Shown here: positions 19,342 to 42,415 of the stretch, piece by piece
Numbering within the stretch: position 1 is the stretch's first letter
How the letters are laid out: each line of letters begins with the position of its first letter
DNA from: Bauldia litoralis
GTDB lineage: Bacteria; Pseudomonadota; Alphaproteobacteria; Rhizobiales; Kaistiaceae
Length of the DNA stretch: 64,000 bases
Direction: 5' to 3'
NCBI GenBank assembly: GCA_945882315.1
Contig: CAMCWB010000008.1
Span: 1 to 64,000, forward strand
Notes under the pieces: model-generated
What the model was told of the DNA's origin: nothing
The model's input: only the letters and a program-made list of their open reading frames with translations
Database searches by the model: none
Translations under genes and position numbers: made by a program

Positions 19342-20121
19342 GTGATCTATTTCCGGTCGATTCTCTTCAATGTCGTCTACTACGTCGTCTCGACGGCGAT
19401 GGTGATATTTTCCCTGCCCGTTTTCGCCTTCGGCAACGAGCGGGCCGGCGCCTGGGTCATCCGGACATGGGCGCGCACCGGCATCGTCCTGCTGCGCGTC
19501 CTCGCCGGCACCAGGCTCGAGGTCCGCGGTCTCGAAAACCTGCCGCCGGGCGGCGCCATCATCGCCTCGAAGCATCAGTCGATGTTCGAGACCTTCGCCC
19601 TCTTCCCGCGCCTGCCGCGCCCGACCTATGTGATGAAGCGCGAGCTTGCCCGCATCCCGCTGTGGGGCTGGTATGCGACCCGCGCCGGCTCGATCACGGT
19701 CGAGCGCGACCAGGGCACCGCGGCGCTGCGCCGCCTCGCCGCCGATGTCAGCAAGGCCATCGCCGTCGGCCGCCAGGTCATCATCTTCCCCGAAGGCACG
19801 CGGAGCACGCCCGGCGCCGTGCCCGACTACAAGGGCGGCATCGCCCATCTCTACAAGATTTCCGGCGCCCCGGTCGTACCCGCCGCACTGAATTCCGGCC
19901 TGTTCTGGCCGCGCCGCCGGATGCTCCGCTTCCCCGGCACGATCGTCATCGAATTCCTGCCGCCGATCCCGCCCGGCCTCACCAGCCGCGCTTTCATGGC
20001 GAGGCTCACGACCGAGATCGAGGCGGCCTCGAACCGGCTTCTGGCCGAAACCGCCGCCGCGAAATCGCCGCCGCCGATGCCGCCGGAAGCGGGCAGGAGC
20101 GTCGCCAATCCGGCGGTTTGA
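19342..20121 (+). CDS. 1-acyl-sn-glycerol-3-phosphate acyltransferase (PlsC family)
   Basis: A 259-residue membrane acyltransferase starting at GTG 19342 (VIYFRSILFNVVYY), 14 bases after ydcF. The family motif I is HQSMFE (His78 to Glu83), with Glu in place of the usual Asp of HX4D; this variant is frequent in alphaproteobacterial members and should be active. Motif III FPEGTR is at 149-154, and the basic VMKREL region of motif II precedes it. It acylates lysophosphatidic acid to phosphatidic acid in phospholipid synthesis. The C-terminus is Ala/Pro-rich and unstructured. Confidence 0.93.
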   Translation: MIYFRSILFNVVYYVVSTAMVIFSLPVFAFGNERAGAWVIRTWARTGIVLLRVLAGTRLEVRGLENLPPGGAIIASKHQSMFETFALFPRLPRPTYVMKRELARIPLWGWYATRAGSITVERDQGTAALRRLAADVSKAIAVGRQVIIFPEGTRSTPGAVPDYKGGIAHLYKISGAPVVPAALNSGLFWPRRRMLRFPGTIVIEFLPPIPPGLTSRAFMARLTTEIEAASNRLLAETAAAKSPPPMPPEAGRSVANPAV

Positions 20122-20142
20122 AGCGGTTTTTCAAAATTCCGC

Positions 20143-20172
20143 TTGCCTCGGCCCGATTCGATGTTCTATGTT
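20143..20172 (+). promoter_or_regulatory. Promoter with -10 embedded in a LexA box
   Basis: TTGCCT at 20143-20148 and TATGTT at 20167-20172 are separated by 18 bases. The expected transcription start falls at or one or two bases around A20180, which is the ATG of the small gene that follows. The -10 overlaps the LexA operator, a common way for LexA to block RNA polymerase. Confidence 0.5.
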
Positions 20173-20177
20173 TGTTC
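20163..20177 (+). promoter_or_regulatory. LexA (SOS) operator GTTC-N7-GTTC
   Basis: GTTCTATGTTTGTTC is an exact match to the alphaproteobacterial LexA consensus, a direct repeat of GTTC spaced by seven bases. The T-rich spacer also matches typical SOS promoters of the group. It lies two bases upstream of the next start codon, pointing to a DNA-damage-inducible gene. Confidence 0.75.
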
Positions 20178-20179
20178 TC

Positions 20180-20560
20180 ATGGTCGCCGAGCTTCTCCCC
20201 ATCCTCTCCGATGCCACTCCAGGCCTAGCCCGCCGGGCGAATCTCGGCGACCGATTCCGATATTGGCGCGGCCAGTCGGGCGAGCGCTACCTCTTCAGCG
20301 CCGTCCCATTCGACACGCTCGCCGACTATCGTTCGGCCGTGGCGATCCTCGCCGAGCCAACCCCCGACGGCCGCTTCCTCGCCTGGACGGCGGCGCTGAT
20401 CGATGCGTCCGGTACGCTCAACGCGGATAATTCCTGGCCGGAGGGCGAGGCCTACGGTTCGATCGCCTTCGTCCATTTCCTCGCCGAGACCGAGCAGCGC
20501 GCGCTTCTCGGCGATCTCTTCGCGCCGGCCGAGCCCGCCGAATTCAGCCTCGCGGCTTAA
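20180..20560 (+). CDS. Uncharacterised small protein, predicted SOS-regulated
   Basis: A 126-residue soluble protein (MVAELLPILSDATPGLARRA). It has no signal peptide or membrane segment and no motif I can name. It is moderately acidic, with a central FRYWRGQSGERYLFSAVPF segment suggesting a mixed alpha/beta fold. The in-frame ATG at 20168 lies inside the LexA box and -10 hexamer, so ATG 20180 is preferred. There is no Shine-Dalgarno sequence upstream, and the predicted transcript would start at about the ATG, suggesting leaderless translation. A dispersed repeat begins directly after its stop codon. Function unknown; DNA-damage induction is inferred from the operator. Confidence 0.75.
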   Translation: MVAELLPILSDATPGLARRANLGDRFRYWRGQSGERYLFSAVPFDTLADYRSAVAILAEPTPDGRFLAWTAALIDASGTLNADNSWPEGEAYGSIAFVHFLAETEQRALLGDLFAPAEPAEFSLAA

Positions 20561-20609
20561 AGCAATGTCAGGAAAAGTGGAGGCCGGTTTTCTGTCCGAC
20601 ATTGCGCAA
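20561..20609. repeat. Dispersed repeat, copy A (core GGAAAAGTGG...CCGGTTTTC)
   Basis: A block of about 49 bases beginning AGCAATGTCAGGAAAAGTGG and ending GTCCGACATTGCGCAAG. The outer parts are complementary (GCAATGTC with GACATTGC) and the inner part too (GGAAAAGTGG near CCGGTTTTC), so it can fold as a long hairpin. Three further copies occur in the window at 21181, 21247 and 25449. It starts at the first base after the stop of the LexA-box gene. Confidence 0.85.
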
Positions 20610-20617
20610 GATAGAAG

Positions 20618-20648
20618 GCTAAGGGCATGAGCACTTCATGCCCTTAGC
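20618..20648. terminator. Perfect 13-bp inverted repeat between convergent genes
   Basis: GCTAAGGGCATGA (20618-20630) and TCATGCCCTTAGC (20636-20648) enclose a five-base loop. The right arm contains the stop codon of the ChaC-like gene on the minus strand. It stands between two convergent genes and probably ends transcription in both directions, though neither side has a strong T tract. Confidence 0.55.
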
Positions 20649-21223
20649 TCTCCGGCGAGCCATGCGAGCACCGGATCCTCGATGCCGAGCGATGCGAGAT
20701 GCGTCGCCGTGTTGATCACGTAATCGCTGTTGATGCCGGAGCGCCCGACGCCGTCGCGGACGTGGCGGAGCAGTTCTTCGCGCGACAGCACGCCGGCATA
20801 TTGTTCGTGCCGCCGGTCGACGAGATAGGCGAGCGCCGTCATTGTCATGGACGTGGGCCCTTCCAGCCGGACCGGCCGCCACGCCTCGTGATAGACCTCG
20901 GTGACCAACTCGCGCTCGCGGAGATAGCCGACCACCGATTCGCGTTTGGCCCCTTCGACCCGGAAGGCGATGCCCCGGCACGAGCCGCCGCGATCGAGCC
21001 CGAGGACGAGCCCCGGCCGCTCGCGCGTCCCGCGATGCACCCAGGAATAGACGCAGAGCGCCCGGTGCGCACCAAGCAGCCGCGCCGGCGCCGCCTCGAC
21101 ATGATCGAAACCCGGCCGCCACATCAGCGAGCCATAGCCAAAGACCCAGAAATCGGAGATATCCGTCGCGGCTTTTACCGGAGCAAAGTCAGGAGAAGCG
21201 GGAACCGTCTTTCCGTCCGGCAT
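20636..21223 (-). CDS. Gamma-glutamylcyclotransferase, ChaC family
   Basis: A ChaC-like protein of up to 195 residues that would cleave glutathione to 5-oxoproline and Cys-Gly. The signature VFGYGSLMWRPGF starts at about residue 27, and YLRERELVTEVY matches the conserved glutamate region. ChaC proteins usually begin just before this signature, but no ATG, GTG or TTG is available there. The nearest start is ATG 21223, which lies inside dispersed repeat copy B; the first 15 or so residues (MPDGKTVPASPDFAP) are repeat-derived. An upstream ATG at 21289 lies in copy C. The start is therefore uncertain and the repeat appears to have supplied it. Confidence 0.82.
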   Translation of the reverse strand: MPDGKTVPASPDFAPVKAATDISDFWVFGYGSLMWRPGFDHVEAAPARLLGAHRALCVYSWVHRGTRERPGLVLGLDRGGSCRGIAFRVEGAKRESVVGYLRERELVTEVYHEAWRPVRLEGPTSMTMTALAYLVDRRHEQYAGVLSREELLRHVRDGVGRSGINSDYVINTATHLASLGIEDPVLAWLAGELRA

Positions 21224-21230
21224 GGCGCAA
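21181..21230. repeat. Dispersed repeat, copy B, overlapping the ChaC start
   Basis: Diverged copy of the same family: GAGCAAAGTCAGGAGAAGCG at the left, then GGAACCGTCTTTCCGTCCGG and CATGGCGCAAA. Its CAT supplies the probable ATG start of the ChaC-like gene on the minus strand. The copy is more diverged than A and C, consistent with an older insertion that became part of a coding region. Confidence 0.75.
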
Positions 21231-21246
21231 AAACCTAAGGACATTG

Positions 21247-21297
21247 GAGCAATGTCAGGAAAAGTGGAAACCGGTTTTCCGTCCGACATTGCGCAAA
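21247..21297. repeat. Dispersed repeat, copy C
   Basis: Near-perfect copy: GAGCAATGTCAGGAAAAGTG, GAAACCGGTTTTCCGTCC, GACATTGCGCAAA. The long palindrome is better preserved than in copy B, 17 bases away. On the minus strand it also contains an in-frame ATG (21289) that could extend the ChaC-like frame further. Confidence 0.85.
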
Positions 21298-21310
21298 TTC
21301 AAGGAACCTG

Positions 21311-21349
21311 GAGCATGATCCGATTCCACTGAAACGGATCATGATCTAG
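21311..21349. repeat. Palindromic repeat GAGCATGATCCG...CGGATCATGATC
   Basis: GAGCATGATCCG and CGGATCATGATCT are inverted around a short centre (attccactgaaa). Motifs of this type recur between genes in Hyphomicrobiales and are often found next to the AAGTGG/CCGGTTTTC family, as here, 13 bases away. It lies in the divergent region between the ChaC-like gene and the DUF2125 gene. Confidence 0.6.
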
Positions 21350-21405
21350 GGCCGGAGCGCGTTTCGCGGCTGGCATCGTGATCGCTCAGCGCCTATCAGG
21401 TCCCC

Positions 21406-22476
21406 ATGACAGACGCAACCGACCAAGCCGCCCCGCCGCCCGCCGATCGCTCGCCCCGCCGTCGCCGCAGCTTGGGCTCTTTCCTGTTCTGGCTCCTGGT
21501 CACGCTGGCGCTCCTCTGGCTGGCATATTGGTGGGGCGCCCGCGAGATCGCGGCAGCCGCCCTCGACCGCGTCACGGCCGCCGCCAACGCGCGCGGCTAC
21601 ACGGTCGAATGCACCGATGCGGTGAGCGGCGGCTTTCCGCTCAGCCTCGATCTGGCCTGCAGCCGCGCCGCCCTCGCCGGTGAGACCGACCCCCTGACGG
21701 CAACTCTTGACGGCGTCGCCGCCAGCGCCCCGCTCTATTTCCCGGGTCGTCTCACCTGGGACTCGGCCGGACCGCTCGCCCTCGACATTCCCGTCAGCCG
21801 CCTCGCTTTGTCCGCCACCTGGACGGCGAGCACTTCGCATATCGATGCCGGTTTCGGCGGCCTCGCCGCGGTCGCCACCCGCATCGAAGGCCTCAACCTG
21901 CGTCTCCGCCCCGAAGCGCGGCCGATCCCGCTCGCCGGAGCAACCGCCGAGCTTGCCGATATCGCCTTCGTGCCGGCGTCCGGTGACGACTATCGCCTGA
22001 CGGCCGTTGCCAAGGCACTGTCGCCCGAATCGGAAGGAGGCCAGCACCTGCCGGCGATCGATCTCGACGCCGATATCGCGGCCGTCGATTTCGGCGGCGC
22101 CCTCGGCACCGATCCCGGCGCCGTTTTCCGCGCCTGGATCGCGAAGGGCGGCGCGATCCGGATCGACCGACGGCAACACGCCGCCGGGGCCGGATCGACG
22201 AGCACCGCCGGCACGCTCGTCATGGCACCGGGCGGCGCGCTGACGGGGACGCTCAAGGTCAATATCGCCGGAATCGAGGCGCTCCCCGATCTCGTCGAAT
22301 CCTACAAGCCCGGCTCGCGCGACGAGGTCGCCCAGGTCGCGGCGGCGATCATGGCTTTCACCCGCCCCGTCGAGACCCCGGCCGGCCCGACCCGCGAATT
22401 GCAGCTCGGCATCCGCAACAATGTCGTCTCGCTCGGCATCATCCCGATCGGCGTCATTCCGAGCTTTGGCTTCTAG
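21406..22476 (+). CDS. DUF2125 domain-containing membrane-anchored protein
   Basis: A 356-residue protein (MTDATDQAAPPPADRSPRRR). A basic cytoplasmic N-terminus and one membrane helix (about residues 24-46) carry a large periplasmic beta-rich domain. GARGYTVECTDAVSGGFPLS-like sequence (here ARGYTVECTDAVSGGFPLS) is the recognisable DUF2125 opening, where GFP(L/Y) is conserved. It resembles AsmA/DUF945-like periplasmic proteins, but no function is established. The stop overlaps the tyrC stop by two bases in CTAG, so the two genes converge with no spacer. It is usually adjacent to tyrC in this order. Confidence 0.87.
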   Translation: MTDATDQAAPPPADRSPRRRRSLGSFLFWLLVTLALLWLAYWWGAREIAAAALDRVTAAANARGYTVECTDAVSGGFPLSLDLACSRAALAGETDPLTATLDGVAASAPLYFPGRLTWDSAGPLALDIPVSRLALSATWTASTSHIDAGFGGLAAVATRIEGLNLRLRPEARPIPLAGATAELADIAFVPASGDDYRLTAVAKALSPESEGGQHLPAIDLDADIAAVDFGGALGTDPGAVFRAWIAKGGAIRIDRRQHAAGAGSTSTAGTLVMAPGGALTGTLKVNIAGIEALPDLVESYKPGSRDEVAQVAAAIMAFTRPVETPAGPTRELQLGIRNNVVSLGIIPIGVIPSFGF

Positions 22477-25448: not shown

Positions 25449-25496
25449 AGCAATGTCGGGAAAAGTGGGAACCGGTTTTCCGTCCGGCAGAGCCGC
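25449..25496. repeat. Dispersed repeat, copy D
   Basis: AGCAATGTCGGGAAAAGTGG then GAACCGGTTTTCCGTCCGGC, followed by a diverged end (AGAGCCGC instead of ATTGCGC). It lies in the short gap between the chorismate mutase start and the end of the NYN gene. It is the fourth copy in the window and the only one outside the 20.5-21.3 kb cluster. Confidence 0.8.
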
Positions 25497-41509: not shown

Positions 41510-42415
41510 ATGCGCATGAACCAGGATTTCTCCGCCCGCCTGCAGGCGATCGCCACCGACACCGAAAAAACCCTCGACCGGCTGCTCTCCGAAAGGCCGG
41601 GCCCGGGCGAGACGGCAAGGCCGGAGCGCCTGATCGCCGCCATGCGCTATGGCGCGCTCGGCGCCGGCAAGCGAATACGTCCTTTTCTGCTCGTCGAATG
41701 CGCCGGCCTCTTCGGCGCTTCGGGTCAACCGGTGCTGGAAGCCGCCGCCGCGCTCGAATGCGTCCATTGCTACAGCCTCGTCCATGACGACCTGCCGGCG
41801 ATGGACGATGACGATCTCAGGCGCGGCCGTCCGACGGTCCACAGGCAGTTCGACGAGGCGACGGCGATCCTGGCCGGCGATGCGCTGCTCACCCTCGCCT
41901 TCGATATCCTCGCCGGAATCGACGCCGACGCCGCGACGCGCATCGAACTCGTCGCCGGCCTGGCGCGCGCCGCCGGCATCGGTGGCATGGCCGGCGGCCA
42001 GATGCTCGACATCGACGCCGAAGGGAAGCGCCTTGACGAAGACGCGACCTTGCGCCTGCAGGCGATGAAGACCGGCGCGCTGCTCCGCTATGGCTGCGAG
42101 GCCGGCGCCATCATCAGCGGGGCCAGCCCGGACGAGCGGACCCGCATGGTCGATTTCGGCCAGCGCATCGGCAAGGCCTTCCAGCTTGCCGACGATCTGA
42201 TCGACGCCACCGGCGACGCCGCCACGGCCGGCAAGGCGACCGCCAAGGACGCTGCGCAGGGCAAGGCGACGCTGGTCGCACTGCACAGCGTCGAACGCGC
42301 CCGCGCCATCCTCGCCGACACCGTCGCCGGCGCCATCGCGACCCTGGCGCCCTTCGGCACCCGCGCCACCGCCCTTGCCGACGCCGCCCGTTTCATCGCA
42401 TCGCGAAGCAGCTAG
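41510..42415 (+). CDS. ispA: Polyprenyl (farnesyl) diphosphate synthase
   Basis: A 301-residue trans-prenyltransferase. The first Asp-rich motif DDLPAMDDDDLRRGRP starts at residue 93 with two extra residues between the Asp pairs, the pattern of bacterial (type II) farnesyl diphosphate synthases; the second motif is DDLIDATGD. GGKRIRPFL-type sequence is present as GAGKRIRPFL. It joins isopentenyl and allylic diphosphates to supply undecaprenyl, quinone and other isoprenoids. The start may be ATG 41510 or 41516. Confidence 0.94.
   Translation: MRMNQDFSARLQAIATDTEKTLDRLLSERPGPGETARPERLIAAMRYGALGAGKRIRPFLLVECAGLFGASGQPVLEAAAALECVHCYSLVHDDLPAMDDDDLRRGRPTVHRQFDEATAILAGDALLTLAFDILAGIDADAATRIELVAGLARAAGIGGMAGGQMLDIDAEGKRLDEDATLRLQAMKTGALLRYGCEAGAIISGASPDERTRMVDFGQRIGKAFQLADDLIDATGDAATAGKATAKDAAQGKATLVALHSVERARAILADTVAGAIATLAPFGTRATALADAARFIASRSS

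Follow-up and report, generated by a model that had tools for sequence, protein, structure and literature searches.

A small gene behind a LexA-type operator: a candidate for a new component of the DNA-damage response in bacteria

A short gene that follows an exact direct repeat of GTTC-N7-GTTC raises two questions: does it belong to the bacterial response to DNA damage, and what could its product do there? GTTC-N7-GTTC is the LexA motif described for alphaproteobacteria in PMC3323433. In the window (the whole 64-kb stretch of DNA analysed here), the repeat stands before a 126-amino-acid gene. Judged by its sequence and that of its relatives, this small undescribed gene may be a new component of the way in which bacteria respond to DNA damage, with a function that we infer below. 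As a candidate SOS gene it has matches in 187 of the 397 genomes sampled from a large order, and if our reading is right it would add a pseudo-nuclease to the alphaproteobacterial SOS response, with concrete tests of the role of such a protein there.

A LexA-type repeat over a predicted promoter

The predicted LexA operator (GTTCTATGTTTGTTC), an exact direct repeat, spans positions 20163–20177 on the + strand. It is followed at 20180–20560 (+) by the gene, whose product ends in ...EFSLAA and very probably has a degenerate GIY-YIG fold (see below). Much of this arrangement had been described in a sequence-only reading of the same DNA, and its main elements were recovered: the 15-bp repeat is exact, the frame from 20180 to 20560 does encode 126 residues, and a −10-like hexamer, TATGTT (20167–20172, +), lies within the operator, separated by an 18-bp spacer from a −35-like TTGCCT (20143–20148, +). 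Both hexamers are weak, with 4 of 6 consensus matches each, and a sigma-70 consensus scan of positions 20100–21350 returned no promoter calls. From the placement of TTGCCT and TATGTT with this spacer, transcription is predicted to begin at about 20179–20181, in agreement with the earlier claim of a start near the ATG at 20180. No AGGAG-like sequence was found before this ATG when the sequence was read by eye, as had been claimed for the Shine-Dalgarno sequence, and a leaderless start is predicted.

Another in-frame ATG, within the operator (20168–20170, +), would give a protein of 130 amino acids. We judge it less likely because 34 of 79 relatives have an ATG 2 nt after the repeat, a count in which ATGs lying within the repeat were left out of consideration.

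GTTC-N7-GTTC occurs once in the window, against 1.47 matches expected by chance, and 57 times across the genome, against 57 for a reversed control pattern. These counts favour the alternative that the gene lies outside LexA control and owes its operator to chance. As the bare count is at chance level, the significance of the motif comes from its conservation upstream of homologues.

The repeat is kept at the same place in most relatives

We took 117 homologous loci, of which 110 form the main set. These comprise the best 30 of 52 matches in a 151-genome search and 80 loci hand-picked for spread, so that the sample is not random; seven loci (L062–L068), five of them outside the order, were excluded from the 110. 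In 75 of the 117 loci, all of them from the main set, an exact copy of the repeat is found no more than 250 bp upstream of the conserved core. Control patterns with the GTTC words at spacings of 4, 5, 6, 8, 9 and 10 were found in 0, 0, 1, 3, 2 and 0 of the 117 loci, respectively, and nine permuted words in 0–2 of them. The repeat is also carried in both halves of a tree of the family. On the strength of the spacing and permuted-word controls we rejected a chance match, which we consider extremely improbable.

Within 360 bp upstream, the exact forward operator was found in 79 of the 110 loci and an operator in either orientation in 83, leaving 31 loci that lack the forward form and 27 that lack both. 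The sequence-only reading had proposed a search for the co-occurrence of family and operator across genomes, and had held that orthologues without the site would speak against a DNA-damage-induced gene. Co-occurrence is what most loci display. Orthologues without the site do exist: with 27 loci having no exact operator, forward or reversed, LexA control does not extend to the whole family.

Starts were assigned by rule to the first ATG in frame downstream of the repeat. This codon follows at 2 nt in 34 and at 1 nt in 3 of the 79 operator-bearing loci (37 of 79 in total, the window included). It lies 8–98 nt after the repeat in another 40 and was not found in 2. A leaderless start, as had been suggested for the window, is thus supported for 37 of these loci. 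About half of the operator-bearing members share a layout in which the −10 element lies within the operator and the ATG falls where transcription is expected to begin. When the 79 promoters were aligned, the conserved flank included TTG at 19–17 bp before the repeat (T 0.70, T 0.68, G 0.57), the same place as in the −35-like hexamer of the window. A T stands directly before the repeat at a frequency of 0.84 and a T-rich stretch comes after it; within the operator, positions 5–6 are T (0.71) and A (0.70), and T prevails at positions 9–11 (0.80–0.91).

The reverse complement of the repeat (GAAC-N7-GAAC) was found in 10 of the 117 upstream regions. In L116, L137, L141 and L158 it stands within 250 bp upstream in place of the forward repeat, and in L063, which is outside the 110 and falls in the same tree group as L116, L137 and L158, the operator is reversed as well. 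Five of the 10 loci also carry the forward repeat, one (L141) is isolated, and four (L063, L116, L137 and L158) are an entire tree group. We had considered the reversed repeat as mere background and dropped this idea since these four loci make up one complete group, in which the operators are likely to be reversed, as judged from sequence.

The tree is a quick one (114 rows, 104 columns, with 51 of 110 inner branches open). The forward operator is clustered on it and requires at least 11 changes. Members without the operator include a starred group of seven whose neighbour is plsC and another of nine, with support 91, whose neighbour is nrdJ. Repeated loss or repeated gain may account for this patchiness; both fit.

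LexA-type operators before SOS-type genes of the same genome

Operators in the same genome were collected as matches with an AT-rich core, in either orientation. Such operators precede lexA (PF01726, 3.7e-18), where the operator is reversed; ssb (PF00436), at 171 bp before its start; an S24 peptidase gene of UmuD type (PF00717); and a gene for a Toprim protein (PF01751), with a LexA-type operator at G000:C9 near 3520 (L014). They also precede four genes identified by fragment matches below the cut-off: an ImuA-like gene (NF033429, 2.6e-12), one for RmuC (2.7e-5), one for a DNA-repair radical SAM protein (TIGR03916, 1.3e-71) and one for a PolIII alpha subunit (PRK05673, 9e-20). Another operator-bearing gene we take by recognition to be uvrA-like; its Pfam matches are weak ATPase ones. 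Further matches with an AT-rich core precede genes that we judged not to be SOS-like.

The genes that PMC3323433 names in connection with GTTC-N7-GTTC include imuA, splB and dnaE. The window gene resembles this alphaproteobacterial LexA regulon in having an exact operator over its −10 region, and like operators precede lexA, ssb and the imuA-like gene of its genome; it differs in that the available regulon text of that paper names no gene like it. Conservation of the operator across the family, together with these operators at SOS-type genes, bears out the earlier suggestion of a LexA-regulated, uncharacterized gene, and the sequence evidence makes it, in our judgement, almost certain that the gene is under LexA control.

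A separate observation concerns contig C26 of the same genome (G000), where near position 41830 a 234-amino-acid gene (L181) starts 32 bp after GTTCCTATTATGTTC. Its first 150 residues have no Pfam match, and its sequence makes it possibly another uncharacterized SOS gene.

Relation of the protein to the GIY-YIG fold

Scans of the window protein and 30 relatives against Pfam, NCBIfam and PHROGs found nothing credible, so that the database search proposed in the sequence-only reading names no family for the protein. A PDB sequence profile search gave only four matches, all at E 0.86 or worse. The Pfam GIY-YIG profile matched none of 30 members at E ≤ 1, and neither PF01541 nor any other curated profile matched the window protein.

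A relation emerged through intermediates. The outgroup member L066/L165 matches the Pfam GIY-YIG profile weakly and below cut-off (0.0074), as does L167 (0.021), and L168, a relative on a Bradyrhizobium plasmid, is annotated as belonging to the GIY-YIG nuclease family. L167 as a query also matches long frames; from seven such frames and from the window genome's own GIY-YIG match we took by motif a set of domains presumed, by recognition, to be of UvrC type (set A4). The four intermediates L165, L068, L167 and L168 (set A5) were reached by chains from the family profile A1, L165 and L068 directly and L167 and L168 via L165, and because all four were reached from A1 this line of evidence is not blind. 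In hhalign, the family matched the intermediates with a probability of 99.0% (2.1e-18) for profile A3 and 97.8% (1.1e-12) for A1. Profile comparison of the intermediates with the UvrC set gave 94.5% (8e-8), and a direct comparison of the family with that set (A3 against A4) found nothing (0.3%). Because of this last result, the case for a GIY-YIG fold rests on the intermediates and on a structural model.

Two models were made. The first, of the window protein with 30 sequences, reached a pLDDT of 74.9, and a structure search with it found no fold and no GIY-YIG row. For the second we chose as query L112, a less degenerate-looking member, with 82 family sequences and the intermediates excluded (pLDDT 86.5, pTM 0.80). 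In VIA-align, its best row was 2lwf (Z 7.3, 3.1 Å over 87), titled as the N-terminal domain of a plant Grx, a GIY-YIG domain. Rows 2–8 and 10 were GIY-YIG entries by title (Z 4.3–5.7), with six UvrC GIY-YIG entries at Z 5.0–5.7 and two R.Eco29kI entries at Z 4.6 and 4.3. Two PD-T4-3 entries, likewise GIY-YIG, scored Z 4.3, and the row after the eleven best scored 3.8. Z scores of 5–7 are below the tool's own line of 8, and values under 8 can reflect a common arrangement. Foldseek at E ≤ 0.001 gave no match for either model.

It is on the agreement of the profile chain with the L112 model that the assignment rests, and from these we regard a degenerate GIY-YIG fold as very likely for the family. 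The statement in the sequence-only reading that the protein has no recognizable domain is thereby replaced. The family shares with the GIY-YIG superfamily (the UvrC N-terminal domain, R.Eco29kI) the strand-strand-helix-strand-helix core of the L112 model and the profile chain, and differs from it in having no Pfam match, at most two of the six catalytic residues and an extra N-terminal hairpin, W-x-G-x-S-G-x-x-Y. The plasmid relative L168 (WP_231146028.1, Bradyrhizobium barranii) is 31% identical to L108 over 90 amino acids and has the hairpin and an HIH motif in common with it; unlike the family, it retains all six catalytic residues and is carried by a conjugative plasmid, with transposase and intron genes around it. 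The match to this relative, listed as L168:5049-5363, begins upstream of the annotated start, which is therefore probably too late.

Loss of the catalytic residues and retention of others

At the six catalytic positions defined on L167 (Tyr, Tyr, Arg, His, Glu and Asn), the window protein has A, W, L, a gap, L and F. Of the 110 loci, 26 retain the GIY Tyr, 24 the Glu and 16 the Arg; the YIG Tyr and the His each survive in 1 and the Asn in 0. The YIG Tyr position is W in 61 and A in 27. Per member, none of the six is kept in 54, one in 44, two in 12 and more than two in 0, and three of the four A5 intermediates keep all six. As the catalytic set is lost, we did not file the protein as a nuclease.

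Other positions are constant. In the A3 alignment (82 aligned sequences), the W, G, S, G and Y of the hairpin are each at least 90% conserved, and a His and an Asp are the same in every sequence, a constancy that none of the former catalytic positions reaches.

The C-terminal tail

The window protein ends in SLAA. An Ala-Ala end is found in 31 of 89 non-redundant members, that of the window included, compared with 7 of 308 neighbouring frames of at least 150 amino acids (Fisher p 2.5e-16, relatedness ignored), which were picked by length and may include wrong frames, and with 2 of 263 neighbouring proteins recognized through homology (p 1.1e-18, relatedness ignored). Shuffling the last 15 residues gave a mean of 4.0 Ala-Ala ends and a maximum of 13. 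Ala-Ala tails of the ssrA-like kind are ClpXP signals, and we put the chance that the product is short-lived, as its sequence suggests, at about even.

We also considered whether the operator and the Ala-Ala end have co-evolved and rejected the idea: the end is present in 29 of 67 members with the forward operator and in 2 of 22 others (Fisher p 0.004), but this reduces to 3 independent pairs on the tree.

A motif of the sliding-clamp type, Q[LIVMYF][SDEN]L[FLWM], occurs in the tail of 7 of the 89 members, on the N-terminal side in two and on the C-terminal side in five. Shuffled tails contained it at a mean of 0.07 and never reached 7 in 2000 rounds, for a motif class that was fixed after the members had been inspected. 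Among the 110 loci, all eight clamp-motif cases carry the forward operator. A clamp motif was discarded for the window protein itself, from whose sequence it is absent.

Gene neighbourhood and ribonucleotide reductase

Neighbours were called by homology to proteins of the window, L062 and L165. Upstream of the gene lies a plsC-like gene for a 1-acylglycerol-3-phosphate acyltransferase (19342–20121, +; TIGR00530, 7.2e-19, below cut-off), which is the upstream neighbour in 57 of the 110 loci. Downstream lie a ChaC-like gamma-glutamylcyclotransferase gene (20636–21289, −; PF04752, 8.2e-37), found downstream in 80 of 110, and a DUF2125 gene (21406–22476, +; PF09898, 1.1e-39), found downstream in 41 of 110, where stretches often end before it.

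A ribonucleotide reductase (RNR) gene is directly upstream in 29 of the 110 loci and is absent from the window locus. In the four cases tested (L155, L101, L139 and L105), the best match was class II NrdJ, that of L101 being a fragment below cut-off, and all 29 upstream RNRs end in a Cys-rich stretch. The gene order plsC-nrd-X, with X the gene under study, was seen in 7 of 7 extended loci (chosen by locus type), which suggests that the window is the same locus without nrdJ. Twelve genomes, again chosen by locus type, were compared for NrdJ copies. The seven of nrdJ type have, besides the locus NrdJ, another elsewhere (frame of 1236–1328 amino acids). The five of plsC type keep the gene without an adjoining NrdJ and have one NrdJ elsewhere (1249–1330 amino acids), to which one of the five adds a weaker match. 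The window genome has a single NrdJ, elsewhere (frame of 1287 amino acids).

Adjacency to RNR genes recurs outside the order. L062 follows a long NrdJ type (PRK07562, fragment) and L064 a relative of that type, and L165 (G348:C28), a GIY-YIG-type gene with all six catalytic residues, adjoins nrdA. The other gene flanking L165 we take by recognition to be nrdB, which would place L165 between nrdA and nrdB. The outgroup members L065, L068 and L167 have no recognized RNR neighbour. PMC2988022 describes free-standing homing endonucleases of T4-like phages, including an HNH enzyme, mobE, situated between nrdA and nrdB. Repeated adjacency to different RNR genes could reflect either function or descent from a homing-type element.

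Distribution and earlier descriptions

With the window protein as query, matches came from 52 genomes in a set of 151 made up of relatives and the window genome; the count of 187 of 397 genomes of the order was obtained with the family member L036. In both searches each row listed showed a single match per genome. Of the 27 listed genomes from the window's own family, 7 match the window protein and 20 do not, among the latter all listed genomes of genera g3, g5, g8 and g9, where the gene is either absent or too diverged. A class-wide alignment search over 385 genomes, with no more than 10 candidates scored in each, matched at least 8, and five of the matched genomes lie outside the order. A first search of genome contigs found no relative, and a second, with profile A2, found 15 loci. 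One plasmid relative was found and no phage relative, the phages being searched with the L165 protein only.

In the literature searched, no paper describing the family was recognized from titles and the starts of abstracts, a weak negative because subscription papers fall mostly outside this scope. The available parts of two Caulobacter SOS papers (PMC13384398, PMC12700426) contain no mention of terms for the family, and those of PMC6813329 and PMC4287350 do not mention it.

A proposed role and its alternatives

We find it reasonably probable that the gene encodes a LexA-controlled and probably short-lived pseudo-nuclease that serves repair or replication. The starting points are observed directly in the sequence: the operator, its place in the promoter, its conservation, the fold relation, the lost residues and the enrichment of the tail. 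LexA binding, induction, leaderless translation, proteolysis and an accessory role are the steps that the reading adds. During normal growth, LexA would sit on GTTC-N7-GTTC over the −10 region and block RNA polymerase. Upon DNA damage, LexA would be lost, a transcript would begin at or beside the ATG, and the leaderless mRNA would be translated into a small protein of GIY-YIG fold that, in lacking the Tyr/Tyr/Arg/His/Glu/Asn set, would be no nuclease of the GIY-YIG type. The hairpin W-x-G-x-S-G-x-x-Y, the His (in HVHLL) and the Asp (in DL) may have been retained as a binding surface. Without catalysing anything itself, the product would assist at sites of replication or repair by binding to a partner or to a DNA structure, and in some lineages it might be tethered to the sliding clamp. 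We hold the accessory role tentatively, at somewhat less than an even chance. Probable turnover by ClpXP through the Ala-Ala tail (SLAA in the window protein) would allow the response to be shut off.

The fold of ImuB differs from that of this GIY-YIG-type family. ImuB is comparable in its manner of working only: according to PMC11791113, it is related to a DNA enzyme but catalytically inactive, and is predicted to work via the sliding clamp in damage-induced mutagenesis. Our family differs in carrying a clamp-type motif in only 7 of 89 members, the window protein not among them.

The neighbourhood invites a different reading, in which the protein is an SOS-induced RNR modulator that binds RNR and tunes the dNTP supply during repair. 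The upstream RNR genes (29 of 110, with class II NrdJ best in the four tested), the plsC-nrd-X order in all seven extended loci, the longer NrdJ type before L062 and L064 outside the order, and the position of L165 beside nrdA (with nrdB by recognition) are all in its favour. Against it, plsC and not RNR is directly upstream in 57 of 110 loci including the window, the one NrdJ of the window genome is elsewhere, five of the 12 chosen genomes keep the gene without a locus NrdJ, and in the other seven the locus NrdJ is a second copy; adjacency does not equal function. We therefore consider a modulator of RNR unlikely, and likewise find it doubtful that the RNR link reflects a present function. 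A more elaborate proposal, that a widespread SOS pseudo-nuclease made from leaderless mRNA and quickly destroyed couples the dNTP supply of RNR to the clamp at damaged forks, having arisen from an RNR-associated GIY-YIG endonuclease by loss of cleavage, strikes us as quite unlikely. As to origin, a free-standing GIY-YIG endonuclease could have been inserted beside RNR genes, lost cleavage and been recruited to the SOS response as a domesticated homing endonuclease, an account that is compatible with any function. Three of the four intermediates have all six catalytic residues, one of them between nrdA and what we take to be nrdB. Yet each genome in the rows listed has one match, mostly at one conserved place, with no sign of recent mobility; one plasmid relative and zero phage relatives (phages searched with L165 only) were found, and the RNR-adjacent family members cannot home because they are without catalysis. 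Such an origin seems to us possible, if on the unlikely side.

Two further readings concern the activity of the protein. A cell-division inhibitor like SulA or SidA, which would delay septation until repair is done, would be expected to be small and rapidly degraded, and the size of the protein, its LexA operator and its likely short life suit this role; SOS cell-division inhibitors vary from group to group. The relation to GIY-YIG proteins suggests DNA transactions instead, some members have clamp-type motifs, and the Pfam and NCBIfam scans returned no such inhibitor family, which leaves this role rather improbable. The His and Asp that are invariant in 82 aligned sequences would fit an active enzyme in which the GIY-YIG scaffold bears a new active site. 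These two residues may be structural, however, because they are also present in the catalytic-type relatives; we regard a new active site as very unlikely. A LexA-controlled pseudo-nuclease in repair or replication remains our best reading.

Repeats around the gene

A palindromic repeat, CAATGTC-GGAAAAGTGG...CCGACATTG, occurs at 20563–20604, 21250–21291 and 25451–25492 of the window. The genome holds 34 copies of this repeat at up to 3 mismatches, against 0 for a reversed control. The first of the three copies starts 2 nt past the stop codon of the 126-amino-acid gene, and the copy at 21250 has a folding energy of −15.8 kcal/mol (z −2.19). Because the longest frame of the ChaC-like gene (20636–21289) begins within this second copy, its real start is probably further in.
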